NCBI GenBank assembly: GCA_017510605.1
Contig: JAFWMQ010000006.1
Span: 1 to 64,000 of the forward strand
Source of the DNA: Clostridiales bacterium
GTDB taxonomy: Bacteria > Bacillota > Clostridia > Saccharofermentanales > Saccharofermentanaceae
DNA: 64,000 nucleotides
Reading direction: 5' to 3'
The translations under genes were made by a program, and so were the position numbers. Of this stretch, positions 16,245 to 45,455 are shown one piece after another. The notes under the pieces were generated by a model. That model did not search any database, was not told where the DNA came from, and saw nothing but the letters and a program-made list of their open reading frames with translations. The first letter of the stretch is position 1, and each line of letters opens with the position of its first letter.

Positions 16245-17432
16245 TCACCCCTGTCTCTTCTTCATGAAGGTAAACATATCATTGTCCTGCGCCAGCTTTA
16301 TACTCCTCATTGCCCTTACTATTTTTCTGATCCCCATCGAAAACAGTACGATTATGCCTGCACCGAGGAAATAGGTCAGCAACGGGGCAATAGCCAGGAT
16401 AAAAAATGTGTAATAGAACAAGGCGAAAGCCGCAGCCGTCAGAAGGATCCCCAGACCAAAAAGGATCGGATAGAACCTTGACTTATCAAGGGGAATTCCA
16501 CAGACGACCTTTCCTGTATCACCATTGACCAAAATTGTAACGTGCTTTCTTTTATGCTTTAAAGTGATGAACCAGACAGGCATCATTGCATATACCATAT
16601 CGCTGTCGAGCTTCAAGGAAGGGCAGGAATGTAAGATCTTCGTTTTTTCGGCTCTTACATTATCCTGTACCTCTTCATCAAAGTATTTCTGAGCTCTCTT
16701 AAAGACTGCATTTTTAACATCGCCGTAGGTTACATCTGAGACATTCGAATAAAAGCCTGCGAGATAGTCTTCGTCAAAGGGCTTGAGATGCGAGAGATTG
16801 AACGGCTCGAGTTTTGAACTGCTCTCATCTGACAAAGCGCGTGATGCATCTACCGGGAAATTCTTCAGCTCAAGATCTCCGGCACGTCCGTAATGATTAA
16901 CTTCAGCATACTTTCCTCTGCCGGTCTTACCATAAACAATAACGGCATTCGAAAATGTTGCGTTTACTATCCAGTACGGGACATAGATTCCGCGTACGCA
17001 TTCAGGTGAGAATTCCTTGATCTGCTTAGGAATGAAAAAGCCCTTACTGATCTTCCCGCGGACAAGCTCAATGGCCTGTTCTTTGGTTACCGAGAATGGA
17101 AGAACATACTCCGGGCACTTCTGCCTTGCGATCCTGCTGAAAACGACGTTCGGGTTCCCGCAATAAACGCATGTAGTCGAAGCTTCCGTTCCGTTGACGA
17201 TGATCTCGCCACCGCATTCGCTGCATGAATAAACATAACAGTCCATGAACTTTTCGATCTCAGTACCATAGACTTCATTCATTGATTCGGCTTTCAGATC
17301 CTGCCTAAACTCCTTAGCCTCCGACTCGATCTCTTCGGGCCTGAAAGAACTGCCGCAGTATGAACATTCCAGCAGCTGTGACTCAGGATTGAAAACCAGT
17401 GCGTGACTGCAATTCTTACATAGTGTTGCCAT
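16245..17432 (-). CDS. Double zinc-ribbon membrane protein, cassette copy 2
   Basis: The 395-residue protein begins with two zinc ribbons: CKNC (residues 5-8) with CSYC, then CSECGG with CVYCGN. A central domain of about 200 residues (including LEPFNLSHLKPFDEDYLAGF and FSNVSDVTYGDV-like text) leads to a C-terminal pair of membrane helices and the end MKKRQG. Proteins of this build are annotated as TFIIB-type zinc-ribbon proteins, but their role is not established. It is a clear paralog of the product of 17923-19137, and each copy is followed by one small membrane protein. The start ATG 17432 is supported by the identical N-terminus MATLCKNCSHALVF in the paralog. Confidence 0.85.
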   Translation of the reverse strand: MATLCKNCSHALVFNPESQLLECSYCGSSFRPEEIESEAKEFRQDLKAESMNEVYGTEIEKFMDCYVYSCSECGGEIIVNGTEASTTCVYCGNPNVVFSRIARQKCPEYVLPFSVTKEQAIELVRGKISKGFFIPKQIKEFSPECVRGIYVPYWIVNATFSNAVIVYGKTGRGKYAEVNHYGRAGDLELKNFPVDASRALSDESSSKLEPFNLSHLKPFDEDYLAGFYSNVSDVTYGDVKNAVFKRAQKYFDEEVQDNVRAEKTKILHSCPSLKLDSDMVYAMMPVWFITLKHKRKHVTILVNGDTGKVVCGIPLDKSRFYPILFGLGILLTAAAFALFYYTFFILAIAPLLTYFLGAGIIVLFSMGIRKIVRAMRSIKLAQDNDMFTFMKKRQG

Positions 17433-17510
17433 GATCTACCCCCCCTATATACCCTTTTATTCCAATGAATATATTAAATTTTTTTGCGGGGCAAATCAAT
17501 AAAACACGTA

Positions 17511-17918
17511 TCAGTGTAAAAATTCCTCGGTGCGTTTCTCCCAATCCGGGACATCGTATTTGTCGGCAGCGGCACTTGTATTTTTCGAGACAAAAGCACC
17601 TTTCGGAACATTGGTCTTTTTCTCAGCTGTAGCCTTCTTTCTGCGCTCTTCTTCTGTCAGCCTTCTGACCTGATCCTGATCAGAGGGACCGGCGGTATCT
17701 TCTTTCCCTGTGGCATGCTGATTGAGATATTCCCTGCTCCAGGCTCTGTCCATCCTGTTGCATTTGGAGGTGAAAGTAGTCTCGGCATTGTAGGTCGTGC
17801 CGTCTCCGCGGCTGTCGCCGATATTATTGGATTTATCGAGCTGCGTTCCGCAGATCCAGAATGCCAGTCCGAATCCGAATCCCAGTGCTAAAAGGCCGGC
17901 GAGGAAATTTATGATCAT
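17511..17918 (-). CDS. Small membrane protein, cassette copy 1
   Basis: This 135-residue protein has a single N-terminal membrane helix (FLAGLLALGFGFGLAFWI) followed by DKSNNIGDSRG and a charged tail. It is the counterpart of the product of 15815-16240. It starts four bases after the zinc-ribbon gene with a GGGGTGATATC RBS. No domain is recognised, and the tail (residues 40-135) looks largely disordered and lysine-rich. Its constant pairing with the zinc-ribbon gene suggests that the two proteins work together at the membrane. Confidence 0.8.
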   Translation of the reverse strand: MIINFLAGLLALGFGFGLAFWICGTQLDKSNNIGDSRGDGTTYNAETTFTSKCNRMDRAWSREYLNQHATGKEDTAGPSDQDQVRRLTEEERRKKATAEKKTNVPKGAFVSKNTSAAADKYDVPDWEKRTEEFLH

Positions 17919-17922
17919 GATA

Positions 17923-19137
17923 TCACCCCTGCCTTTTCTTCATAAAGTTGAACATCGCCTTGTCCTGCGTAAGACGGATGTTTTCCATAACTCTCTTGAT
18001 CTTATTGACCCCTGTCGAGAAGAGCGTGACGATAGTGCTGATAATGAACACCCACAACAATATCTCGCCTTTGGAGATCTTCACTTCAGGCCCCGAGAAC
18101 ATTACCGTCAGAAATCCCTTAAATACAAAGAACGATAATACCGTCGCCGTTATGGCGATAGCAAAGAGCAGAATGTTGAACAGTGCTTTCTTCCACGGCA
18201 GAGCGCAAACGACTTTGCCCGTGTCGCCGTTAACAAGGATGGTGTGATGCTTTCCCTCGAAATCGAAAGAAATGAACCACGCAGGCAGCATTGCGTATTT
18301 CATATCGGTGTCGACATCAATGGACGGATATGAATCTACGACCGTTTTGTTATATGCGTCAACGTCTTTTACCGACGCTTCGGCAAAGAATTCCTTGCCC
18401 CTTTCCATGGCGACCTTCCTTACGTCGCTGTAAGTAACGTCAGATACGTTTGAATAGAAGCCGGCCAGATAATCCTCGTCAAACGGCTTTAAATGCTTCA
18501 GATCAAAAGGCTCCAGCTTCGAGCTGCTGTCATCTGAGAGTGCCCTGGATGCGTCGATCGGAAGATCCTTGAACTTTAGATATCCCGTGCGTCCGAAATA
18601 TCTGGTAACGGTCTTCTTGTCTTCGGTTACCGAACCCTCAACGATCACCGTGCCATAATACGTGGCATTAACGATCCAGTAAGGAAGATATATCCCCCTG
18701 CAGCAGTCGACGGAGAATTTCTTGATCGCCCCGGGAACAAAAGCCCCCTTATTTATCGCCTCTCTGGCCCGGATCATGGCGACCCCCTTAGAGATCCTGA
18801 AAGGCATTATGAATTCGGGCTGTCTCTGCCTTGCTATCCTGCTGAATACGACGTTCGGGTTTCCGCAAAAAATGCATGACGTCGATGCCTCGGTGCCGTT
18901 TATGATGATCTCGCCTCCGCATTCGCTGCATGAATAAACATAGCAGTCCATGTATTTCTCGTCTTCCATGCCATAGACTTCATTTATCGGTTCGGCCTTC
19001 AGATCCAGTCTGTAGTTTTTTGCTTCAGACTCGACTTCTTCAGGCGTGAAAGAGCTTCCGCAGTATGAGCATTCAAGCAGTTGTGATATCGGATCGAAGA
19101 CCAGTGCATGACTGCAATTCTTACATAGTGTTGCCAT
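17923..19137 (-). CDS. Double zinc-ribbon membrane protein, cassette copy 1
   Basis: The 404-residue protein shares the N-terminus MATLCKNCSHALVF, the CSYCGSSF, CSECGGEII and CIFCGNPNVVF cysteine motifs, the LEPFDLKHLKPFDEDYLAGF block and the MKKRQG end with the product of 16245-17432. Two membrane helices lie at about residues 310-385. The cysteine pairs predict two bound zinc ions on the cytoplasmic side. Function is unknown; the family appears in clostridia as a membrane-associated zinc-ribbon protein. Upstream is the trp operon with its terminator, so this cassette likely has its own promoter in 19138-19250. Confidence 0.85.
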   Translation of the reverse strand: MATLCKNCSHALVFDPISQLLECSYCGSSFTPEEVESEAKNYRLDLKAEPINEVYGMEDEKYMDCYVYSCSECGGEIIINGTEASTSCIFCGNPNVVFSRIARQRQPEFIMPFRISKGVAMIRAREAINKGAFVPGAIKKFSVDCCRGIYLPYWIVNATYYGTVIVEGSVTEDKKTVTRYFGRTGYLKFKDLPIDASRALSDDSSSKLEPFDLKHLKPFDEDYLAGFYSNVSDVTYSDVRKVAMERGKEFFAEASVKDVDAYNKTVVDSYPSIDVDTDMKYAMLPAWFISFDFEGKHHTILVNGDTGKVVCALPWKKALFNILLFAIAITATVLSFFVFKGFLTVMFSGPEVKISKGEILLWVFIISTIVTLFSTGVNKIKRVMENIRLTQDKAMFNFMKKRQG

Positions 19138-34151: not shown

Positions 34152-34586
34152 TCACTGCATTATCGCAAACTTCAGCGTAGCCTTAACTGCAACCTTGCCG
34201 TCAACAGTGGCAACTGCTTCTCCCAAGCCGACGGGGCCTTTAACGGCAATGATCTTTGTCTCGAGTCTTACCGTATCACCGGGATAAATGGCCGCCTTGA
34301 ATTTGCAGTTGTCGATACCTGCAAACACCGCGATCTTACCCTTGAAATCCTCTTTTGAAAGGATGGCAACAGCTCCGGCCTGGGCAAGTGCCTCAACCGT
34401 GATAACGCCCGGAACGATCGGATAATCAGGGAAGTGTCCTCTGAAAAAATACTCGTCATAAGTAAAATTCTTATAAGCGATACAATATTCACCCGGAACA
34501 TAGTCCTCTACCTTGTCTATAAGAAGGAAGGGGTGTCTGTGGGGAATGATCTTCATGATCTCGGTAGTGTTAAGAGCGTTTGCCAT
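34152..34586 (-). CDS. fabZ: 3-hydroxyacyl-ACP dehydratase
   Basis: The 144-residue hotdog-fold enzyme dehydrates 3-hydroxyacyl-ACP to trans-2-enoyl-ACP. The catalytic His51 lies in RGHFPDYPIVPGV and Glu65 in ITVEALAQAG, exactly as in FabZ. The N-terminal MKIIPHRHPFLLIDKV segment is also diagnostic. The start has AGGAGGATCCTTTCC upstream, and the gene follows fabF by 14 bases as the last gene of the operon before a strong terminator. In this order the clostridial operon runs H-K-D-G-F-Z. Confidence 0.96.
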   Translation of the reverse strand: MANALNTTEIMKIIPHRHPFLLIDKVEDYVPGEYCIAYKNFTYDEYFFRGHFPDYPIVPGVITVEALAQAGAVAILSKEDFKGKIAVFAGIDNCKFKAAIYPGDTVRLETKIIAVKGPVGLGEAVATVDGKVAVKATLKFAIMQ

Positions 34587-34600
34587 GGAAAGGATCCTCC

Positions 34601-35833
34601 TTATTCTTCAAACTTCTTGACTATCAGGGAAGCATTATGACCTCCGAAACCCAAGTTGTTTGTCATAGCATACACTATATTGCGGTTCTTAGGTTCAATA
34701 AATGTGTAATCGAGATCCATTTCACCTTCACTCTCTTTGGAACCGGCCGTAACATGAACGAATCCGTCCTGAATAGACTTGACGCAGGTGATGAGCTCAA
34801 CGCCGCCGGCACCGCCCAAAACATGGCCGATCATGGACTTGGTCGAGTTGATCGAGATATTCTTAATATCTTCTTTGAACGCATATTTCATCGCGCGTGT
34901 CTCGAAAAGATCGTTGTGATGAGTGGACGTTCCGTGTGCGTTGATATAATCGATGTCAGAAGGCTTGATTCCTGCTTCCTTCATGGCAATGATCATTGCT
35001 TCACCGGCGCCGCTTCCGTCCTCTGCAGGTGATGTGATGTGGAAAGCATCGCATGTTGCGCCGTATCCCACGATCTCTGCGAGAATGTTTGCGCCTCTTG
35101 CCTTTGCGTGCTCATAGTTCTCAAGTACAAGAACGCCTGAGCCTTCACCGATGACAAAACCGTCTCTGTCTTTATCGAACGGCCTTGAAGCCGTCTCGGG
35201 ATCATCGTTGGTCGAAAGAGCCGTAAGTGCCGCAAATCCCTGTACGCCTGTCTTACAGACAGCTGCCTCGCATCCGCCTGTGACCATAACATCCGCGTCA
35301 CCGTACTTAACAGCCTTGAAAGCATCACCAATGGAGTGAAGACCTGTAGCGCATGCCGTAACTACGCATGTGTTGATTCCCTTCATTCCATACATGATCG
35401 CAATATTAGCGGAAGCCATGTTTGCGATCATCATAGGGATATACATAGGTGCGATCTTACCGGATTTCTCGTATCTTACCTGCTCTCTCTCGTGAGCCTG
35501 CATCGAACCGATGCCGGAGCTGACGATAACGCCTACCCTGTAAGGGTTCTCTTTCTCCATATCAAGACCTGACTGTTCAATCGCTTCCTTTGCTGCAGCC
35601 ACTGCGAAATGAGCGAAGGGCTCCATACGCTTCATTGTCTTGAAATCCATGTAATTTGTAGCATCGAAGTCCTTTACTTCGCATGCGAGCTTTACCTTGG
35701 AATTGCTAGCATCAAACTTTGTGATCGGGCCTGTTGCAGCCTTACCTTTTTTAAGACCTTCCCAAAAAGCCTCAACACTGTTGCCCAGCGGGGTGATCGC
35801 ACCCATGCCGGTTACTACGACTCTGTTTGCCAT
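34601..35833 (-). CDS. fabF: 3-oxoacyl-ACP synthase II
   Basis: The 410-residue condensing enzyme elongates acyl-ACP with malonyl-ACP. The catalytic Cys161 sits in VTACATGLHSIG, and the two histidines in NAHGTSTHHND and SMIGHVLGGAGG. The start MANRVVVTGMGAITPLG is typical. The ATG at 35833 has a GGAG RBS. The gap to fabG is 54 bases, the widest between the last genes. The length and motifs indicate a working enzyme, in contrast to the dead second half of the KS-KSbeta fusion at 41356. Confidence 0.96.
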   Translation of the reverse strand: MANRVVVTGMGAITPLGNSVEAFWEGLKKGKAATGPITKFDASNSKVKLACEVKDFDATNYMDFKTMKRMEPFAHFAVAAAKEAIEQSGLDMEKENPYRVGVIVSSGIGSMQAHEREQVRYEKSGKIAPMYIPMMIANMASANIAIMYGMKGINTCVVTACATGLHSIGDAFKAVKYGDADVMVTGGCEAAVCKTGVQGFAALTALSTNDDPETASRPFDKDRDGFVIGEGSGVLVLENYEHAKARGANILAEIVGYGATCDAFHITSPAEDGSGAGEAMIIAMKEAGIKPSDIDYINAHGTSTHHNDLFETRAMKYAFKEDIKNISINSTKSMIGHVLGGAGGVELITCVKSIQDGFVHVTAGSKESEGEMDLDYTFIEPKNRNIVYAMTNNLGFGGHNASLIVKKFEE

Positions 35834-35887
35834 TTAATGATTTACTCCGTTGTTTTTATTTTCGAGGTGCTCCCCAAAGCACCTAAA

Positions 35888-36634
35888 TTACATATGCATT
35901 CCGCCGTCAACACTCAATACCTGGCCCGTGATGTATGAAGCATCATCGGAGCAGAGGAAATTGACCGCATTAGCGATATCTTCGGGCTGACCGTATCTCT
36001 TGAGCGGGATCATTGCGAAGATCGCTTCCTTCTGCTTGTCAGTGAGAACAGCTGTCATGGGTGTCTCGACATATCCGGGAGCGATTGCATTAAACGTGAT
36101 GTTTCTTGAAGCAAACTCTCTTGCGCAAGACTTTGTAACGCCGATGACGCCTGCCTTTGAAGCAGAGTAGTTGACCTGGCCTGCCTGGCCCTCGATACCT
36201 ACGATAGAGGAGATGCTTACAACTCTTCCCTCTCTCTTCTTCATCATGAAGGGTGTGCAGTGTTTGATAAAGTTGAATGTACCCTTAAGATTTACGGCGA
36301 TTACCGCATCGAAGTTCTCCTCAGTCATCTTGAGGAGCAGGCTGTCTCTTGTAATGCCTGCATTATTTACGAGGATATAGATGCCGCCGAAATCTTCATT
36401 GATCCGGTTTACTGTCTCGCCAACCTTCTCGAAATCAGCGACGTTGCACTGATAGGACTTTGCGTCAACGCCCAAAGCCTTGACCTCATCCTCACAATCC
36501 TTGCTCATCTCAAGGGGGCATGCGTCAACGATCGCGATGTTATAGCCGCTCTTTGCAAGTCTTACTGCGATTGCTCTTCCGATTCCTCTTGAAGCGCCTG
36601 TAACGATTGCTGTCTTTCTTATATTATCTGACAT
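35888..36634 (-). CDS. fabG: 3-oxoacyl-ACP reductase
   Basis: The 248-residue short-chain dehydrogenase reduces 3-oxoacyl-ACP with NADPH. The cofactor motif VTGASRGIGRAIA is at residues 10-24, the Asn in VNNAGITRD, and the catalytic Tyr and Lys in YSASKAGVIG. The C-terminus ends with VDGGMHM. GGAGGTAAGAATC precedes the ATG. It starts 18 bases after fabD. A second SDR (40606-41340) lies in the neighbouring cluster; this copy belongs to fatty acid synthesis. Confidence 0.95.
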   Translation of the reverse strand: MSDNIRKTAIVTGASRGIGRAIAVRLAKSGYNIAIVDACPLEMSKDCEDEVKALGVDAKSYQCNVADFEKVGETVNRINEDFGGIYILVNNAGITRDSLLLKMTEENFDAVIAVNLKGTFNFIKHCTPFMMKKREGRVVSISSIVGIEGQAGQVNYSASKAGVIGVTKSCAREFASRNITFNAIAPGYVETPMTAVLTDKQKEAIFAMIPLKRYGQPEDIANAVNFLCSDDASYITGQVLSVDGGMHM

Positions 36635-36652
36635 GATTCTTACCTCCTTTGA

Positions 36653-37570
36653 TCAGCCAAGATTCCCGAGTAATTTTTCTATATCTTCAGGTGAAGCAAC
36701 ACCGATAACCTTGATCGAGGGAACCGTTTTTCTCACAAAACCTGCGATGGTCTTTCCCGGACCGACTTCGATTATCGTATCTACGCCCATCTTCTCAAGC
36801 TCATAGAGTGTCTGTTCCCACCTGACGGGACTTGACACCTGGGCCATAAGAAGATCTTTTATCTGTGTTTTATCTGTTATTTTCGAAGCATTTGCATTTG
36901 CGAAATAAGGGATCTTCAGATCACCGAACTCAACGCTCTCAAGCTTTTTACCGAGTTCATCACCGGCACCCTTAAGAAGAGGTGAGTGGAAAGGACCGGA
37001 AACTTTGAGTTCGACTACCTTTTTCGCACCGGCTTCCCCGAGCTTTGTCATTGCCTCATGGACAGCTTCCTTCTTACCAGTGATGACGATCTGGCCGGGG
37101 CAGTTAAAGTTAGCGGGCCAGACACCTTCGATCTTGCTTGTAACTCCCTCAATAGTCTCAGCATCCAGACCGATTACCGCTGCCATTGTACCTTCGCCTG
37201 CGGGAACGGCATTTGACATAAGTCTTCCCCTGAGTCTTGTAAGCGCAACTGCATCCTTGAAGCTCAAAGCGCCTGCAACGTAAAGGCTGCAGTATTCTCC
37301 TAACGACAAACCTGCTGTTACATCAGGCTTGATCCCTGCGTTCAAAAGCGCATCGGTTATGATGCAGCATGCCGTGACCAGTGCGGGCTGAGTAAATTCC
37401 GTGATGTTGATGTCTTCGTTGGGCTCGAAAAGGAGCTTATTCATATCGACGTCAGCCGCCTCGGATGCCTCGTTGATCATTGCGGCATAGCGGCTGTCCG
37501 ACTTAACAAAATCTTCGGCCATTCCGACTTGCTGGACACCCTGGCCTGGGTAACAAAAAGCAATGCTCAT
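36653..37570 (-). CDS. fabD: Malonyl-CoA:ACP transacylase
   Basis: This 305-residue enzyme loads malonate onto ACP. It starts with the family pattern CYPGQGVQQVGM, and the nucleophile Ser89 is in TAGLSLGEYCSL. In most FabD proteins the residue before that Ser is His (GHSLGEY); here it is Leu. The second catalytic His is in SGPFHSPLLKGAG. The ATG shares one base with the fabK stop (TAATG), so translation is coupled. The enzyme may also charge the extra ACP encoded at 43620. Confidence 0.94.
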   Translation of the reverse strand: MSIAFCYPGQGVQQVGMAEDFVKSDSRYAAMINEASEAADVDMNKLLFEPNEDINITEFTQPALVTACCIITDALLNAGIKPDVTAGLSLGEYCSLYVAGALSFKDAVALTRLRGRLMSNAVPAGEGTMAAVIGLDAETIEGVTSKIEGVWPANFNCPGQIVITGKKEAVHEAMTKLGEAGAKKVVELKVSGPFHSPLLKGAGDELGKKLESVEFGDLKIPYFANANASKITDKTQIKDLLMAQVSSPVRWEQTLYELEKMGVDTIIEVGPGKTIAGFVRKTVPSIKVIGVASPEDIEKLLGNLG

Positions 37571-38502
37571 TATGCTTCGATCTTCCTTCCCAAAAGTTCA
37601 TCTGCCTGGGCAAACATCGATTCGATGATGACTTTGGCAGGTCTTACCTCATTTATAAGGCCTGCGATCTGTCCGGCCATAAATGTTCCTTCCTTCGTGT
37701 CTCCTTCAACAACAGCCTTACGGAGACTTCCTACCGTAAGTCCCTCAAGTTCTTCGAAAGTAACACCGTTCTGCTCCATCTCAAGATATCTGTTGGAAAG
37801 AGCATTTCTAATCTGTCTTACAGGGTGACCGTAGGATCTTCCCGTAACTCTTGTTGAGTTATCTCTTGCCCTGATGATCATATCCTTGTAGTTATCGTGA
37901 ACGTTAACTTCATCGCATGCACAGAAGACAGTTCCGCACTGAACGCCTTCGGCTCCGAGCATGAAAGCAGCTGCAACGCCTCTGCCGTCAGCGATTCCGC
38001 CTGCTGCGATAACAGGAATGGAAACCGCATCAACGACCTGCGGAACAAGAGTCATAGTTGTTGCTTCACCAATGTGTCCGCCTGATTCCGTACCCTCTGC
38101 GATTACCGCGTCCGCGCCGCACTGCTGCATTCTCTTTGCGAGAGCAACACCTGCAATTACAGGAACAACGATGATGCCGGCTTCTTTCCACATATCCATG
38201 AACTTTTCGGGTGATCCGGCGCCTGTGGTAACTACCTTTACTTTCTCTTCTGCTATAACTTTAGCAATCTCAGGAGCTCTCGGATTCATGAGCATGAGAT
38301 TAACGCCGAACGGCTTATCCGTTGCTTCACGGCACTTTTTTATCTGGTCACGAAGCCAGTTTTCATCTGCTCCGCCAACACCGATGATACCGAGTCCGCC
38401 GGCTTCAGATACTGCAGCTGCGATATGCCAGTCTGCTACCCAGGCCATACCGCCCTGGAAGATTGGATACTTGATGCCGACCAAATCTGTAATTCTTGTC
38501 AT
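37570..38502 (-). CDS. fabK: Enoyl-ACP reductase II (FMN-dependent)
   Basis: The 310-residue TIM-barrel flavoenzyme reduces enoyl-ACP; it is the FabK type, used by clostridia and streptococci instead of FabI. Diagnostic text: GIKYPIFQGGMAWVADW, EAGGLGIIGVGG, IPVIAAGGIADGRGVAAAF and LGAEGVQCGTVF. It is related to nitronate monooxygenase, but its place in the operon settles the role. GGAGAGTCAGATC lies before the ATG at 38502, 28 bases after fabH. Confidence 0.95.
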   Translation of the reverse strand: MTRITDLVGIKYPIFQGGMAWVADWHIAAAVSEAGGLGIIGVGGADENWLRDQIKKCREATDKPFGVNLMLMNPRAPEIAKVIAEEKVKVVTTGAGSPEKFMDMWKEAGIIVVPVIAGVALAKRMQQCGADAVIAEGTESGGHIGEATTMTLVPQVVDAVSIPVIAAGGIADGRGVAAAFMLGAEGVQCGTVFCACDEVNVHDNYKDMIIRARDNSTRVTGRSYGHPVRQIRNALSNRYLEMEQNGVTFEELEGLTVGSLRKAVVEGDTKEGTFMAGQIAGLINEVRPAKVIIESMFAQADELLGRKIEA

Positions 38503-38530
38503 GATCTGACTCTCCTTTGCTCTTATTTCA

Positions 38531-39511
38531 TTAATAAACTATATAATTCGCATCCCAGGTAAGTCCGGCGCCGAAGCTTGCCATAACAAGTTTCATGCCG
38601 GGTTTGATCTTTCCTTCCTGTTTCAATTGGGTAAGAAGCATCGGGATGCTTGCTGAAGATGCATTTCCGTAATTCATTATGTTCATGGGGAATCTGTCAC
38701 GGGGAATTCCCAATTTTTTCGCCGTAGCTTCAATGATCCTTGCATTTGCCTGGTGAAGGATAAAGAGATCGACATCATTTTCGAGGTCGAAACTGAACTT
38801 CTCAGAAAGATCCTTGATGATCTGGGGAACTTCAGTAACAGCAAACTTGAATACTTCTCTGCCCTGCATATAGAAGGAAGTAGCTGTCTTAAAGCCCTCT
38901 TCTTCCCATCTGTCAGGCTGTCTTGCAGCTTCGCAGCGAAGGCATCCGCCTCTTGCGCCTGAAGACCTCATGATGAACTGGTTCGGCTTGGCAGTCCCGT
39001 CAGCCTTAAGAACGGCTGCGCCGGCACCGTCACCAAACAGGATGCAGGTTCCTCTGTCCTGAAAATTCGCGAAATTGGAATTGCATTCTGAACCGATGCA
39101 AAGAGCATATTTTGAATTGCCGGTCTCGATGAAGCTCTGAACCGTATTCCATGCAGCGACAAATCCCGGACAAGCGGAATTGACATCGAAGCATCCGCAG
39201 TTCTCGGTGGCGCCTATTGCTTCCTGGACCACGCAGGACATCGAAGGAATGACAAGATCAGGAGTCGTGCACGCGGTTACGATAAGGTCGATCTGCGAAG
39301 GATCGATCCCCGCGTCCTCTATGGCCTTCTTAGCAGCTTCGACTGCCATTGTAGACGGCTTCTCGGTAATGTGATCTGCTATATGTCTTTCCTTTATTCC
39401 TGTACGCTCGGTTATCCACTCGTCACTGGTATCAAGGAATTTCGCGAAGTCGTCATTAGTAACGACTTTCTTCGGAATATATGATCCGAGCCCAATAATT
39501 CTGCCTGTCAT
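38531..39511 (-). CDS. fabH: 3-oxoacyl-ACP synthase III
   Basis: The 326-residue enzyme starts fatty acid chains by condensing an acyl-CoA with malonyl-ACP. The catalytic triad is Cys114 (NSACPGFVAA), His in ILHQANARI and Asn in NYGNASSASIP. It starts MTGRIIGLGSYIPKKVV. It is the first gene of the operon, so its promoter sets fab expression; that promoter carries FabT-like dyads and is preceded by 31-bp repeats. The ATG at 39511 is preceded by AGAGGTTGGAAG. Confidence 0.96.
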   Translation of the reverse strand: MTGRIIGLGSYIPKKVVTNDDFAKFLDTSDEWITERTGIKERHIADHITEKPSTMAVEAAKKAIEDAGIDPSQIDLIVTACTTPDLVIPSMSCVVQEAIGATENCGCFDVNSACPGFVAAWNTVQSFIETGNSKYALCIGSECNSNFANFQDRGTCILFGDGAGAAVLKADGTAKPNQFIMRSSGARGGCLRCEAARQPDRWEEEGFKTATSFYMQGREVFKFAVTEVPQIIKDLSEKFSFDLENDVDLFILHQANARIIEATAKKLGIPRDRFPMNIMNYGNASSASIPMLLTQLKQEGKIKPGMKLVMASFGAGLTWDANYIVY

Positions 39512-39582: not shown

Positions 39583-39595
39583 TTTGATTGTCAAA
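39583..39595. promoter_or_regulatory. FabT-like site 1
   Basis: TTTGA-TTG-TCAAA matches the TTTGA-N3-TCAAA dyad bound by FabT-type MarR regulators of fab operons. It touches the -10 element of the fabH promoter. Confidence 0.65.
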
Positions 39596-39623
39596 GTATT
39601 CCACAGGCATGCTTGTTTGTCAA
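39595..39623 (-). promoter_or_regulatory. fabH promoter
   Basis: On the minus strand, TTGACA (39618-39623) and AATACT (39595-39600) are separated by 17 bases, about 80 bases before the fabH ATG. FabT-like sites lie at both ends. Confidence 0.65.
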
Positions 39624-39627
39624 GTGT

Positions 39628-39640
39628 TTTGATGCTCAAA
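39628..39640. promoter_or_regulatory. FabT-like site 2
   Basis: TTTGA-TGC-TCAAA lies directly upstream of the -35 element; its centre is 45 bases from site 1. Two sites suggest bridging or graded repression by an acyl-ACP-sensing FabT. No fabT gene is in the window. Confidence 0.6.
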
Positions 39641-39669
39641 GTATTTTGCGAAATGCGGGATTTATGCTG

Positions 39670-39805
39670 TTTTTGTCGGATGCGAAGTCTTTTTATGTGT
39701 TTCCGACATACCTTTAAGAAAAATGTTTATTTTCCGACACACTAAAGGGAATTTTGTTTAATTCCCGACACGCTAAAGAGATAATTCAATGATTTCCGAC
39801 AAAAA
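39670..39805. repeat. Inverted repeat enclosing the 31-bp array
   Basis: TTTTTGTCGGA (39670-39680) is the reverse complement of TCCGACAAAAA (39795-39805). It brackets the array and uses the same TCCGACA motif. Confidence 0.55.
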
Positions 39806-39823
39806 AGACCCGGAGAACCCCTC
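39700..39823. repeat. Four tandem 31-bp imperfect repeats upstream of the fab promoter
   Basis: Units start at 39700, 39731, 39762 and 39793. Their CCGACA cores lie at 39703, 39734, 39765 and 39796, exactly 31 bases apart. Units 1 and 2 agree in about 20 of 31 positions, and units 2 and 3 in about 21. Unit 4 keeps only the first nine bases (TTTCCGACA). The last unit runs into the terminator and stop of the flavodoxin gene. The constant period, about three turns of DNA, suggests binding sites on one face of the helix. Confidence 0.7.
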
Positions 39824-39830
39824 ATTCTCC
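39801..39830 (-). terminator. Terminator of the flavodoxin gene
   Basis: GGAGAA (39812-39817) and TTCTCC (39825-39830) form a short stem that spans the stop codon; on the minus strand it is followed by GGGTCTTTTTT. The stem is only 6 bp, so it may be leaky. Confidence 0.55.
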
Positions 39831-40565
39831 CTGCTTCTCAAACCTGCTCGCAGCCCAGCCGCCTTCATTCATGTGAGAGCTCGTCAGGGTCTCGAATCCT
39901 TCGGGAGATAAGATCGGTATAGATATTTTACGCATTGTCTCGGAACTGATCTTAAAACCGTTCGCGCAGTACTCGCTGCCGGCATCCTTAATGCTCTCGA
40001 GGTACATCTTGATCTGTCTTTTCGCTCTTCCGGTCATGAAGATCTCTCCCATGGCACAAAGGATTGCCGTATACCTGTCCCTGCCGCCGCAGATCAGATC
40101 GTATTGGGCGAGGAGTGCCGGATATACAGGTTCAAGTTCAACGTATCCGCATGAACTGATGATCACAAACTTCTTTTCGAAGATCGAAGGATCCCTCATC
40201 TTGTTGAAGGTCTGGCCGTCATCACTCCTGCCTCCCATATATGGCTCAGCAAGAGATAAACATCTGTCTGTTACTGCCTTGAGCTGTGAAGGCATTCCGT
40301 AAAAATACAGAGGGAAACTCTCGATAATGATGTCTGATTCTTTGATGGCGGCAATTATCTCAGCCATATCATCCCTGATGGCACAGGTTCCGTCAGGAGA
40401 AGCCCAGCATGCAAAACAGCCCCTGCAGGGCTTGATATCCTTTGCATAGATATTGATCCTTTTAACTTCCGTGCCTTCAGGAAAACCGGAAACAAATGCA
40501 TTGGTAACATTAAGGGTGTTGCTTTTTTCGAGCTTGGGACTGCCGTTAAGTATTAGTACTTTCAT
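39822..40565 (-). CDS. Flavodoxin-fold NAD(P)H oxidoreductase
   Basis: The 247-residue protein begins with the flavodoxin-like pattern MKVLILNGSPKLEKSNTL, followed by PCRGCFACWASPDGTC (three cysteines, typical of FMN reductase-type enzymes that may bind an Fe-S centre or use a disulfide) and DIIIESFPLYFYGMPSQLKA for FMN binding. It probably supplies reducing equivalents to a substrate that cannot be named. It is the last gene of the second acyl-carrier gene cluster, 40 bases after the SDR, and is followed by a weak terminator. Coupling with the SDR and KS genes suggests a reductive tailoring step, although that link is positional only. Confidence 0.82.
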   Translation of the reverse strand: MKVLILNGSPKLEKSNTLNVTNAFVSGFPEGTEVKRINIYAKDIKPCRGCFACWASPDGTCAIRDDMAEIIAAIKESDIIIESFPLYFYGMPSQLKAVTDRCLSLAEPYMGGRSDDGQTFNKMRDPSIFEKKFVIISSCGYVELEPVYPALLAQYDLICGGRDRYTAILCAMGEIFMTGRAKRQIKMYLESIKDAGSEYCANGFKISSETMRKISIPILSPEGFETLTSSHMNEGGWAASRFEKQGE

Positions 40566-41355: not shown

Positions 41356-43617
41356 TTATGCCTTGGTCAGCAATACTGCCGAATAAAGCGCACTGGTTCC
41401 GTATGAGACTGCTATTCCGTTCTCTGTCCTGCCTTCATAGATATCTTTTGCGAGCATCGCGAACTGCAGTGAAGATGATGCAGCTCTTGCTTCGCCGTAA
41501 TCCTTTTTGACAAGCTTAACTTCTATATCTTCTCCGAAAATCTCTTTATATACTTCCATCTCGAAATCATCGATTCTCTTTATGCCGTTTCCGAAGCCGT
41601 AGATGCAGGATATCTCAGAGGCCTTCATTCCGCCCTCTTCAAGAACACTCCCGATAGCCTTTTTAAGGGCTTTTGCGGACAATCTCACATTATCGGTTCT
41701 GTCGCCTGAAGTATCTCTTGCAGAAGAGAAACCCGCGATCTTAGCATAGCGCTTTGCGCCTCTTTCAGCAGCGCTTGAATCCTTCTCGATGATGCATGTT
41801 GACGAGCCTTCTCCGAGAGTCATCTTTCCTTCACCGGTAAGGCCAAGGTCACTGTAGATCTCATCATCTATTACCGTACATTCATCCGTTCCGGATGCGA
41901 GCATGATGCTCTCATAACCGAACATGATCGCACCTGCCGCCGCACATACGCTCTGAAGACCTGACTGGTAACCGTTTGCAATAGTGACGTTGTATCCCTT
42001 TATGCCTGTTGCGATACTCAGATATCCGCCTGCTGCATTGTAGACAGTGTTCGGGAATGCAAAAGCGCTTCCTTTCTCGATTCCGTCTCTGATGATGCCT
42101 TTCTGGAAATTTGCTATCTCAGTCATCGGTCCGTCATTGGTGCCAATGCAGATACCGATGATATTTTCGTTTTCTTCGGTAACGGTAATACCTGCATCTT
42201 CCAAAGCCCTGAGACCGCTCAGGAGCTGAAGCTGCGACAGTCTGTCAAGCTTTCTTAAAAATGCTGACTTAATACCGTAGTTTTTGAATTCTTCATTTTC
42301 GAGTTTTGCAATATAATCGCCTGAAGCCTCATCATAATCGCCGCTGACGATTCCGATGCCGGTAACATACAAACACTGCTTCGGGCATGTAAGATTCAAA
42401 ACATTAGGATCTTTAGCGAAAACGATGCTCGCATTATTGCCTCCGAAGGCAAAAGAATTGGACATCGCGTATTTGATCTCTTTTTCGGCAGGCTTATTGG
42501 CGATAAATCTGATACCGCCGGACTTTTCCTTCAAAACCTCGAGATCTTCTTCACTATAACCCGTCGTCGGAGGAAGTTTTCCTTCCTTAAGTGCCTTGAC
42601 CGTAAGTACGGCCTCAATGGCGCCTGCCGCACCTAAACAGTGACCGGTCATTGACTTTGTCGAACTTACATAAAGATCTTTATTCTCTCCGAAGATCGTT
42701 TTCAATGACAGGAACTCCGATTCATCATTCTTTGCAGTTCCCGTACCGTGTGCATTCACGTAATCGATGTCCGTAAACTTAAGTCCGGAGTTCTTTACCG
42801 CACGGGTAATAACGCTCATCTGGCCCTCGCCGTCGGGTCTTGGGGCAGTTATGTGATAAGCATCCGAGCTTACGCCTGAACCCAGCACATCACAGTAGAT
42901 CTTCGCACCGCGCTTAACGGCATGCTCATAACTTTCTACGACAAGTACTCCGGCACCTTCACCTAAAGTAATTCCGTCACTGTGATTGAACGGTGAGCAT
43001 TCTGAAGGAGACAATGCCCTTAACGCATGGAAACCTGCATAGGCAAGAGATGAGAACGAATCGCATCCTCCTGCAAGGAAGATCTCTCCTTTGCCTCCGC
43101 GGATAAGGTCTATCGCCAGAGCGAGACTTAATGTGCCTGCGGCACATGCATTAACAATATTTGCGGTTATTCCGCCTGCGTTGTAGTAATCTGCAACATT
43201 TCCGGCAATAACCGTGGCGGAGATGGACATAATGTCATTAGGATCGCCCTTCTCCCCTCTTTCCTTCTGGTTGTAATACTTATCGACACATGCCGCGCCG
43301 GCTATGCAGCTTCCAAGCAGAACACCGATCTCTGATGCATCTTCGGAATCCATATCGAGTCCTGCATCCCTGATCGCTTCGCCCGCTGCCTTGATTCCAA
43401 GGGCAGTTGTTCTGTCATATTTCCCGCCGGCAAGCTGCTCATCAGTAAGCTTAACCTCGGCACCCTTATGGGAATAGCATTCGGTAGTATCAAAACTTTT
43501 GGCATCTTCTATGCCGGACTTGCCGTCAAGAGCTGCCTGAAAACACTCATCTGTATTATCTCCGGTCGCGCAGACAAGTCCTAACCCTGTGATTACACAG
43601 CGCTTTTCATTAAGCAT
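41356..43617 (-). CDS. Fused ketosynthase and dead ketosynthase (KS-KSbeta, chain-length-factor-like)
   Basis: The 753-residue protein holds two ketosynthase modules. The first (residues 1-405) is intact: Cys158 in VNACAAG, His290 in NAHGTGTAKND, Lys321 and His326 in STKSMTGHCLGAAGA. The second (about 412-753) starts CLYVTGIGIVSG and ends SAVLLTKA but lacks all three residues: Tyr550 sits at the Cys position (ANGYQSG), and FGNGIKRIDDFE and KKDYGEARAA replace the His-bearing motifs. An inactive KS partner is the hallmark of KSbeta or chain length factor in type II polyketide and aryl-polyene systems, where it usually is a separate protein. Here both are one chain. The ATG follows the ACP gene by two bases with GAGG upstream. 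It could alternatively be a fatty acid-like enzyme. The product is unknown. Confidence 0.85.
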   Translation of the reverse strand: MLNEKRCVITGLGLVCATGDNTDECFQAALDGKSGIEDAKSFDTTECYSHKGAEVKLTDEQLAGGKYDRTTALGIKAAGEAIRDAGLDMDSEDASEIGVLLGSCIAGAACVDKYYNQKERGEKGDPNDIMSISATVIAGNVADYYNAGGITANIVNACAAGTLSLALAIDLIRGGKGEIFLAGGCDSFSSLAYAGFHALRALSPSECSPFNHSDGITLGEGAGVLVVESYEHAVKRGAKIYCDVLGSGVSSDAYHITAPRPDGEGQMSVITRAVKNSGLKFTDIDYVNAHGTGTAKNDESEFLSLKTIFGENKDLYVSSTKSMTGHCLGAAGAIEAVLTVKALKEGKLPPTTGYSEEDLEVLKEKSGGIRFIANKPAEKEIKYAMSNSFAFGGNNASIVFAKDPNVLNLTCPKQCLYVTGIGIVSGDYDEASGDYIAKLENEEFKNYGIKSAFLRKLDRLSQLQLLSGLRALEDAGITVTEENENIIGICIGTNDGPMTEIANFQKGIIRDGIEKGSAFAFPNTVYNAAGGYLSIATGIKGYNVTIANGYQSGLQSVCAAAGAIMFGYESIMLASGTDECTVIDDEIYSDLGLTGEGKMTLGEGSSTCIIEKDSSAAERGAKRYAKIAGFSSARDTSGDRTDNVRLSAKALKKAIGSVLEEGGMKASEISCIYGFGNGIKRIDDFEMEVYKEIFGEDIEVKLVKKDYGEARAASSSLQFAMLAKDIYEGRTENGIAVSYGTSALYSAVLLTKA

Positions 43618-43913: not shown

Positions 43914-44546
43914 TTACACTATGTTGCTCGGTTTTTCCAACGAAACAGAATAAAAGTGCAAAATAACATTGAAGCGCCTTAATTCTTTTACCGACATTTT
44001 GCACTTATAACCCCAGGAAGAAACTGTAAGGGTATCACCGTCTATTTCAGTAATCGTCACCCAGTGAAAACCCAGCTTTCCCTTGGTTCCGGTCGGCATC
44101 TCGATGGAAACATTTTCGAACGGTGCCGTTACGAGCATTACCAGGGGATCACCGCTCTTAAGATATTCCGGGATCTTCTTCCACCATTTGAAGCGGAAAG
44201 GCTTGACCCGGATATTAAGGCCCTCCTTGACCGCAAGTTTTTTGACGCCTTTTTTGAACCTTCCGGCACTGACACCCAGTGAGCCCAGAAACTCTTTGCC
44301 GAACAGCTTTCTCGGCTCCCTGTTCTTACCGACCGTTATAGGTCTTATGTAGTCTTTTGCATCGAAAAACCTTTCAAAATACTCTTCCCTGGGCATGCGT
44401 TCCTCGCCCTTAAGACGCATGATGGCATCAAGACCGGCTATTATTCCGCATCCGCTATTAAGCAGCATCTTATCCGGAAGCCACATCTGGCTTCCTCCGA
44501 ATGACTCTAATCCGTATTTATCTATTATCTTCGGGGGAGAACTCAT
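43914..44546 (-). CDS. Papain-fold, C39-like cysteine protein
   Basis: The 210-residue protein has a papain-like arrangement: Cys33 in NSGCGIIAGLDAI and His161 in GFHWVTITEIDGDTLTVSSWG, with the third residue not certain. No signal peptide or membrane helix is seen, so it is cytoplasmic. C39-like proteins cleave peptides, and related papain folds move acyl groups from ACP (for example BtrH in butirosin synthesis). Its position directly before the ACP and after an asparaginase-like gene (overlapping it by four bases, ATGA) makes an acyl-transfer or peptidase role for this pathway plausible, but this is inference. A 48-base gap separates it from the ACP gene. Confidence 0.65.
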   Translation of the reverse strand: MSSPPKIIDKYGLESFGGSQMWLPDKMLLNSGCGIIAGLDAIMRLKGEERMPREEYFERFFDAKDYIRPITVGKNREPRKLFGKEFLGSLGVSAGRFKKGVKKLAVKEGLNIRVKPFRFKWWKKIPEYLKSGDPLVMLVTAPFENVSIEMPTGTKGKLGFHWVTITEIDGDTLTVSSWGYKCKMSVKELRRFNVILHFYSVSLEKPSNIV

Positions 44547-45385
44547 CTTAACAACACCTCACACCATGCTCCTTCTATGGGAACTCCGGATAATTCCAAA
44601 GCCCCGGCATCCCTTAATCTCTTTCTGCTCTCATATACGCCCGAATCAACGGGAATGGGTGCCATAAAGCACTGTATCCCTTTTGATGTCCAGTTTCTGA
44701 TGAGCGGCTCTAACTCTATGCTCGCTGTACCCGAATGATTACAGCAGATAAGCACCCTGTCAAAACCCGTATCAGGCACCACTGCTCCCGGAACAGCCGG
44801 AATAACCAATATCTCCGGGAGCTTATCTTTTGTCAGGAAATCCGTGCAGTCTCTTATTTCAGGTTCGGTGCCATCCTCATACTCGGAATAAATACCGTTT
44901 ATGTCCGGCGAGATAATGCCCCATGCTTTGTAAAGCACAGGTTCTCCGTTTCTGTCTCTGAATACGGCACCGCTCTTCTCATCTTCCAGACACCTGACCG
45001 CAAATGACAGATTGCCTGAGGCTTCATCAGGACAGGCATCGGGAGCTTTAACAGATCCGGTAATTACAAACGGAATATTTAAGCCTGATAAGACCCTGTA
45101 TGCGAGCTGTGCGAAAAAAGCACATGTATCGGTCCCGTGGGTTATTAAGATCCCGTCAAACGGAGAAAGCCCGGCCTCTCTGATAATATTCTTAAGTGCC
45201 TCACGGTATGTATAAGGAGTTGCATCTTCAGATGAGTATGTGGAAAACTCCGGGAAAACAAACTCGTGTTCCGGGTATTTATCCAAGAGGGAACTGCGGA
45301 CAAAAGAAGGCTCTCCAAGCTTGATCGTGCCGGAGGAATTATATGAAGAGATAGTGCCTCCGAGCATGGCGCCCATTATCCGCAT
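44543..45385 (-). CDS. L-asparaginase-like enzyme
   Basis: The 280-residue protein has the asparaginase I signatures: Thr11 in MLGGTISS, the second Thr in ITHGTDTCAFFAQ (about residues 85-97) and Lys in VITGSVKAPDA. It should hydrolyse asparagine to aspartate and ammonia, or a similar amide. I chose ATG 45385, preceded by AAAGGAAAG, because the open frame above it begins with TTG and has no better RBS. It is shorter than the typical 325-residue enzyme, with the C-terminal part reduced. It is the first gene of the second cluster and divergent from xth. It may have an unrelated nitrogen role despite the operon. Confidence 0.85.
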   Translation of the reverse strand: MRIMGAMLGGTISSYNSSGTIKLGEPSFVRSSLLDKYPEHEFVFPEFSTYSSEDATPYTYREALKNIIREAGLSPFDGILITHGTDTCAFFAQLAYRVLSGLNIPFVITGSVKAPDACPDEASGNLSFAVRCLEDEKSGAVFRDRNGEPVLYKAWGIISPDINGIYSEYEDGTEPEIRDCTDFLTKDKLPEILVIPAVPGAVVPDTGFDRVLICCNHSGTASIELEPLIRNWTSKGIQCFMAPIPVDSGVYESRKRLRDAGALELSGVPIEGAWCEVLLR

Positions 45386-45455
45386 AAGTCTCTTTCCTTT
45401 CAATGCGCAATTTAGAGTAAAATATACGCATCAATTATAATTCACGAGGTTATTT

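Follow-up and report, generated by a model that had tools for sequence, protein, structure and literature searches.

The length of the chains made by polyketide and polyene systems is determined by pairs of an active ketosynthase (KS) and a catalytically dead partner (KSβ or CLF). To our knowledge, the two are joined in one chain only in the PUFA synthases of type I. KS-CLF didomains occur in PUFA synthases of the PfaC type, for which intramolecular dimers have been proposed (PMC13311796). In the aryl polyene (ApeO-ApeC) and ishigamide (Iga11-Iga12) systems, a KS and a dead CLF are accompanied by a free ACP, a KR and a DH, as in the locus described here (PMC8358021), but the two ketosynthases are separate chains, unlike the fusion that is our subject, and ApeC is half-sized. 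In this article, we analyze a KS-KSβ protein encoded in a stretch of 64,000 nucleotides, referred to below as the window; its named relatives belong to Saccharofermentans and to allied MAGs from the rumen and gut. The features of the locus are collected in Table 1.

Table 1. Coordinates of the fused gene, its cassette and the flanking features in the window
Feature	Position	Strand	Characteristics and basis
Fused KS-KSβ	41356..43617	minus	753 aa, no stops; ORF and translation
Active half, aa 1-403	42409..43617	minus	FabF-like KS: Cys158, His290, Lys321, His326
Inactive half, aa 404-753	41359..42408	minus	KSβ/CLF-like, without the Cys and both His
Dedicated acyl carrier protein, 81 aa	43620..43865	minus	PF00550; phosphopantetheine site DSIDSIEI
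FabG-type ketoreductase (FabG2), 244 aa	40606..41340	minus	TIGR01830 252 bits, under cut-off
Flavodoxin-fold flavoprotein	39822..40565	minus	PF02525/PF03358; compact CX2CX2CX7C motif
Papain/C39-like cysteine enzyme	43914..44546	minus	Cys33, His161, SSWG motif; without Pfam match
Asparaginase-like protein, locus neighbor	44543..45403	minus	PF00710; kept at empty site too
Housekeeping FAS operon fabH-fabK-fabD-fabG-fabF-fabZ	34152..39511	minus	ORFs, families, gene order
Terminator-like hairpin, cassette end	39812..39830	minus	consensus match
Two perfect TTTGATNNTCAAAG palindromes, FabT-like, before fabH	39583..39641	plus	sole perfect matches in 64 kb
Promoter-like site before fabH	39623-39595	minus	consensus match

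The fused protein and its gene cassette

The fused open reading frame contains two copies each of the Pfam domains ketoacyl-synt (PF00109) and Ketoacyl-synt_C (PF02801), and the whole fused protein scores 463.6 bits against the FabF model TIGR03150. A preliminary description of this DNA had stated that the first half keeps Cys158, His290 and His326 and that the second half has lost all three, and it had allowed that the second half might not be a ketosynthase at all. The positions proved exact, and together with Lys321 these residues show no substitution in 51 aligned relatives, one gap apart, when homologues covering each position are considered. In the second half the catalytic Cys is replaced by Tyr550, at a position where relatives vary among Phe, Tyr, Ser and Asn, the first His by Phe675, and the second His by Glu709, which lies inside an invariant GEAR motif. 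All 15 diverse fused proteins have the triad intact in the first half and absent from the second. As judged by profile comparison, the inactive half is a genuine ketosynthase fold: hhalign against FabF gives a probability of 99.7% (E 9.5e-27, 296 columns), the FabF model matches with E 4.5e-31, and PDB FabF chains match with E as low as 5e-33.

Estimates of dN/dS, for which several dS values are close to saturation, range from 0.03 to 0.08 in the active half and from 0.05 to 0.13 in the inactive half. Because the ratio is low in both, i.e., both are under strong purifying selection, the inactive half is maintained and neither half is decaying. The KSβ half of Saccharofermentans is short, about 350 aa compared to 376-415 aa in other fused relatives. 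The best PDB match of the KSα half is 9s5h, which holds two different KS chains. The AlphaFold model of the fused protein is of low confidence (pLDDT 40.8), probably owing to insufficient alignment depth, and for this reason the α/β pairing within the protein is one that we infer.

The fused gene belongs to a four-gene cassette consisting of an ACP, KS-KSβ, a FabG-type reductase and a flavoprotein with an FeS motif, located between a cysteine-peptidase-like (C39-like) gene and the fabH-led FAS operon. The preliminary description of a small operon with a dedicated ACP and an SDR is borne out by Pfam, which identifies the ACP (PF00550) and the FabG-type SDR. The cassette ACP differs from the housekeeping AcpP, which adjoins rnc on another contig, and can be aligned with the ACPs of related clusters; FabG2 is a second FabG in addition to the fabG of the FAS operon. 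The product once labeled a flavodoxin reductase is indeed flavodoxin-like, but a more apt name would be flavodoxin-fold protein, with a CX2CX2CX7C motif. This four-cysteine motif is common to the flavoproteins of the Saccharofermentans, Lachnospira eligens, L108 and L161 clusters, and we take its compact form to resemble that of iron-sulfur flavoproteins. No starter-unit, release or export gene specific to the cassette was found.

The C39-like neighbor has a papain-like fold in its AlphaFold model (pLDDT 84.8; VIA Z up to 13.7), and at the loci read its gene always has the asparaginase-like gene on one side and the cassette or fabH on the other. We considered it as a candidate chain-release enzyme and rejected it: it is present in 10 cassette-free genomes and sits beside fabH in all six of those inspected. 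Because it is also present in genomes without the cassette, the gene is not cassette-specific. On the other side of the cassette, several TTTCCGACA-like repeats at 39677-39800 follow the TTTGATNNTCAAAG palindromes. Because these FabT-like palindromes and the promoter-like site precede fabH, the FAS operon probably begins a transcript of its own, separate from that of the cassette; the promoter and terminator matches in the region are consensus matches only and no commoner than chance. Elsewhere in the window, the segment 46242-50102 encodes a 1286-aa protein which, by reading, appears to combine a LacI-type sensor, GGDEF and EAL domains and a repetitive β-rich tail.

Distribution and phylogeny of the fused family

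Of 85 Saccharofermentans genomes, 35 carry the fused gene (intact in 34, split in one), which forms two clades with 61-62% identity between them. It was not found in other genera of the order, and no free-standing KSβ orthologue turned up when the whole order was searched with the KSβ half. Lone KS matches (38-42%) in relatives and in a sister genus were considered as unfused KSα and rejected as FabF-type genes; most are in FAS operons, with no KSβ adjoining those examined. The gene order is nearly constant, namely asparaginase-like, C39-like, ACP, KS-KSβ, FabG2, flavoprotein and then fabH-K-D-G-F-Z, and at the empty site of cassette-free genomes the asparaginase-like and C39-like genes are followed by fabH-K-D-G-F-Z directly. 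Since the C39-like gene runs straight into fabH in those genomes, the unit that is gained or lost consists of exactly four genes. The MAG Tb.RUG.504 carries two cassette copies on different contigs (L039, L040), possibly a strain mixture.

A wider search, first with a profile built on the inactive half and next with one covering the entire protein, detected fused relatives of 789-847 aa in other Clostridia and in Bacilli, usually inside type II gene clusters. The view in the preliminary description that the fused architecture is peculiar to an anaerobe does not survive this genome search, which finds the fusion in L. eligens, Priestia megaterium and other Bacillota. Its "uncharted chain-building pathway" stands in part: we found no paper describing the stand-alone fused KS-KSβ family, which is unstudied and scattered through Bacillota, and the pathway is uncharted in that sense, while its chain product is putative. 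The L. eligens protein (WP_041688922; 47-49% identity) is encoded on megaplasmid NC_012780 and that of P. megaterium (WP_013060151) on pBM500, and both are annotated only as KS family proteins.

The L. eligens operon comprises genes for an α/β hydrolase, ACP, KS-KSβ, KR, FabZ, FabD, AccD, a probable AccA (the unannotated ORF 17379-18287), a flavodoxin-family protein and PlsX, with no FabK/FabI-type reductase. The P. megaterium and L120/L151 clusters contain a thioesterase, MAT, KR, ACP, DH and a GcvT-like protein, and that of P. megaterium also holds a PPTase gene; the clostridial L108/L160 clusters add ABC transporters and glycosyltransferases. Common to the related clusters are KS-KSβ, ACP and KR, several having DH and MAT as well. 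Neighboring unfused KSα and KSβ genes also occur in Bacillota (L157, L158, L161). In several distant clusters, a conserved GcvT-like aminomethyltransferase is encoded directly beside the fused KS (L108:10966-12084, L120:11459-12595, L170:10904-11986), and a Bacilli fused-KS cluster includes a 1066-aa protein without Pfam match (L151:12256-15456).

In a tree of all halves, the KSα of the fused proteins are placed outside FabF, which forms a separate clade (support 99-100/98). The preliminary description had left room for a grouping with FabF-type proteins of primary metabolism; a constraint joining the window's clade to FabF is rejected, only just (p-AU 0.041), which places the first half outside the FabF clade by a marginal test. 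When KSα sequences alone are used, those of the fused proteins cluster together (91/98), and a constraint uniting all of them in one clade is compatible with the data (p-AU 0.477). Groupings by lineage among the KSβ halves mirror those among the corresponding KSα halves: Saccharofermentans groups with L. eligens (100/100 and 100/99 for the α and β halves, respectively), and matching groupings are found for L155/L156/L159, L108/L160 and L120/L151. The KS of the E. coli aryl polyene system falls among the fused KSα on a very long branch, so its placement is unsure. The simplest reading of these trees is one ancient fusion with joint divergence of the halves, and there may instead have been several fusions.

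Proposed function and competing explanations

We consider it likely that the protein works as a single-chain KS–CLF which iteratively builds a dedicated acyl chain with its own ACP and KR. Three of the features expected of a KS–CLF system are present, i.e., an active Cys-His-His KS, a partner with the KS fold that lacks the catalytic Cys and His residues, and a discrete dedicated ACP. The proposal builds on what can be read directly from the sequences, namely the fusion, the kept and lost residues, the selection, the limits of the cassette, the separate ACP and the gene sets of relatives. The active N-terminal KS and the dead C-terminal KS would fold as an intramolecular pseudo-heterodimer, where the dead half would help form the tunnel for the chain and the surface for the ACP and may give chain-length control. 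FabD for malonyl loading and FabZ for dehydration would be borrowed from the neighboring FAS operon, their probable source. Synthesis would start de novo with a malonate-derived chain rather than extend a finished fatty acid, and the chain would probably either stay partly unreduced, as a β-hydroxy, enoyl or polyene-like product, or be reduced by the FeS-motif flavoprotein, before being handed to a lipid or small-molecule acceptor. The flavoprotein may act in enoyl reduction, product tailoring or electron transfer. The cassette as a whole would probably make a dedicated lipid-like chain, apart from the normal fatty acids. The shortness of the Saccharofermentans KSβ half and the absence of starter-unit, release or export genes specific to the cassette count against this proposal.

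A reduced FAS locus in the genome Horse_feces246 bears on this proposal. At the contiguous locus L049:11056-15022, fabD, fabZ and a gene for a fused AccDA-like protein come immediately after the cassette, and fabH, fabK, fabG1 and fabF are gone. L049 and the assembly G050 agree in the lengths of the cassette and of a lone KS match, from which we infer that they represent one genome. FabF, FabH and FabK were not found in the G050 assembly, and since this assembly is 64% complete their genome-wide loss is tentative. The retained set (ACP, KS-KSβ, KR, flavoprotein, FabD, FabZ and AccDA) almost matches the operon of L. eligens. This suggests that the cassette can do without FabH, FabF and FabK, whereas it requires MAT, DH and a supply of malonyl units. 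We therefore favor a single-chain KS–CLF that builds its chain iteratively and de novo.

The other explanations that we weighed overlap with the single-chain KS–CLF at the level of the product, since one and the same KS–CLF mechanism would yield either a polyene or a lipid-bound acyl chain, and the confidences given to them need not add up to one. A polyene-type pathway, similar to aryl polyene or highly reducing type II PKS systems, where KS–CLF, KR and DH make a conjugated polyene with no enoyl reductase, is a product-level version of our reading rather than its opposite, and we entertain it as a tentative possibility. The L120, L151 and P. megaterium clusters have the KS–CLF, KR, DH, MAT and ACP with no enoyl reductase, and the aryl polyene KS of E. 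coli falls among the fused KSα; however, that KS has the long branch and unsure placement described above, the aryl polyene CLFs are half-sized (PMC8358021), and the window is without aryl starter genes and encodes FabK next door.

It is unlikely, in our judgment, that the KS–CLF and its ACP form an alternative fatty acid synthase supplying membrane lipids with ordinary or modified fatty acids, with the flavoprotein as enoyl reductase. The L. eligens operon would suit such a role, as it encodes AccD, PlsX and a flavodoxin-family protein and has no reductase of the FabK/FabI type, and so would the L049/G050 locus, where the cassette persists with fabD, fabZ and accDA and without fabH, fabK, fabG1 and fabF. 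In contrast, a full FAS operon is also present in the window and in nearly all relatives, the window's genome has a housekeeping AcpP, KSα lies outside FabF, and the relatives in Bacilli are without the flavoprotein and resemble specialized-metabolite clusters. We also know of no flavodoxin-fold enoyl-ACP reductase, which counts against this role. Decidedly unlikely is a self-standing second type II FAS-like synthase of gut anaerobes, in which the single-chain KS–CLF would have a private ACP, the iron-sulfur flavoprotein would be a new kind of enoyl reductase and unusual acyl chains would pass to membrane lipids via PlsX, and which would persist without FabH, FabF and FabK. The position next to the FAS operon and the good FabF score of the first half could also indicate a second FabF with a duplicated, degenerate structural tail that serves housekeeping fatty acid synthesis. 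We regard this as very improbable given the cassette's own ACP, KR and flavoprotein, its apparently separate transcript, the all-or-none insertion of four genes, the α/β co-divergence across distant lineages and the placement of KSα outside FabF.

Comparison with known systems

If the single-chain KS–CLF reading is true, the protein would offer structural and engineering studies a compact KS–CLF that is naturally a single chain, and it would point to acyl products of an unrecognized class made by bacteria of the rumen and gut, including L. eligens of the human gut. The PfaC/PfaB PUFA synthases resemble the fused KS-KSβ in having an active KS and a CLF in one chain (PMC13311796). However, they are large type I megasynthases, whereas the fused KS-KSβ is a stand-alone two-domain protein with discrete ACP, KR and accessory enzymes. 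It has two domains only, without the DH domains and the PfaA/B/D partners of those large type I proteins, and it scores 99.8 bits against TIGR02813, where the cut-off is 1010. The aryl or other starter machinery of ApeO-ApeC and Iga11-Iga12 is not seen at the window locus, and in a comparison with E. coli CFT073 the aryl starter genes, two ACPs, ApeR and the exporter are absent from the window neighborhood. Type II aromatic PKS of the actinorhodin type have the KSα/KSβ/ACP minimal set in common with our locus, but their ketosynthases are separate chains and distant in the tree, and no cyclase or aromatase is seen at the window locus. FabF (KASII) is like the first half in sequence and active site but is a single-domain homodimer in a separate clade. 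The fused KS proteins of L. eligens and P. megaterium have the same architecture as that of Saccharofermentans; the L. eligens operon is similar but has its own FabZ, FabD, AccD and PlsX, and P. megaterium differs in its GcvT-like protein, thioesterase and PPTase. The mode of action suggested here, a KS–CLF pair, is thus a known one, and what appears to be new is its stand-alone, single-chain form outside a type I protein.
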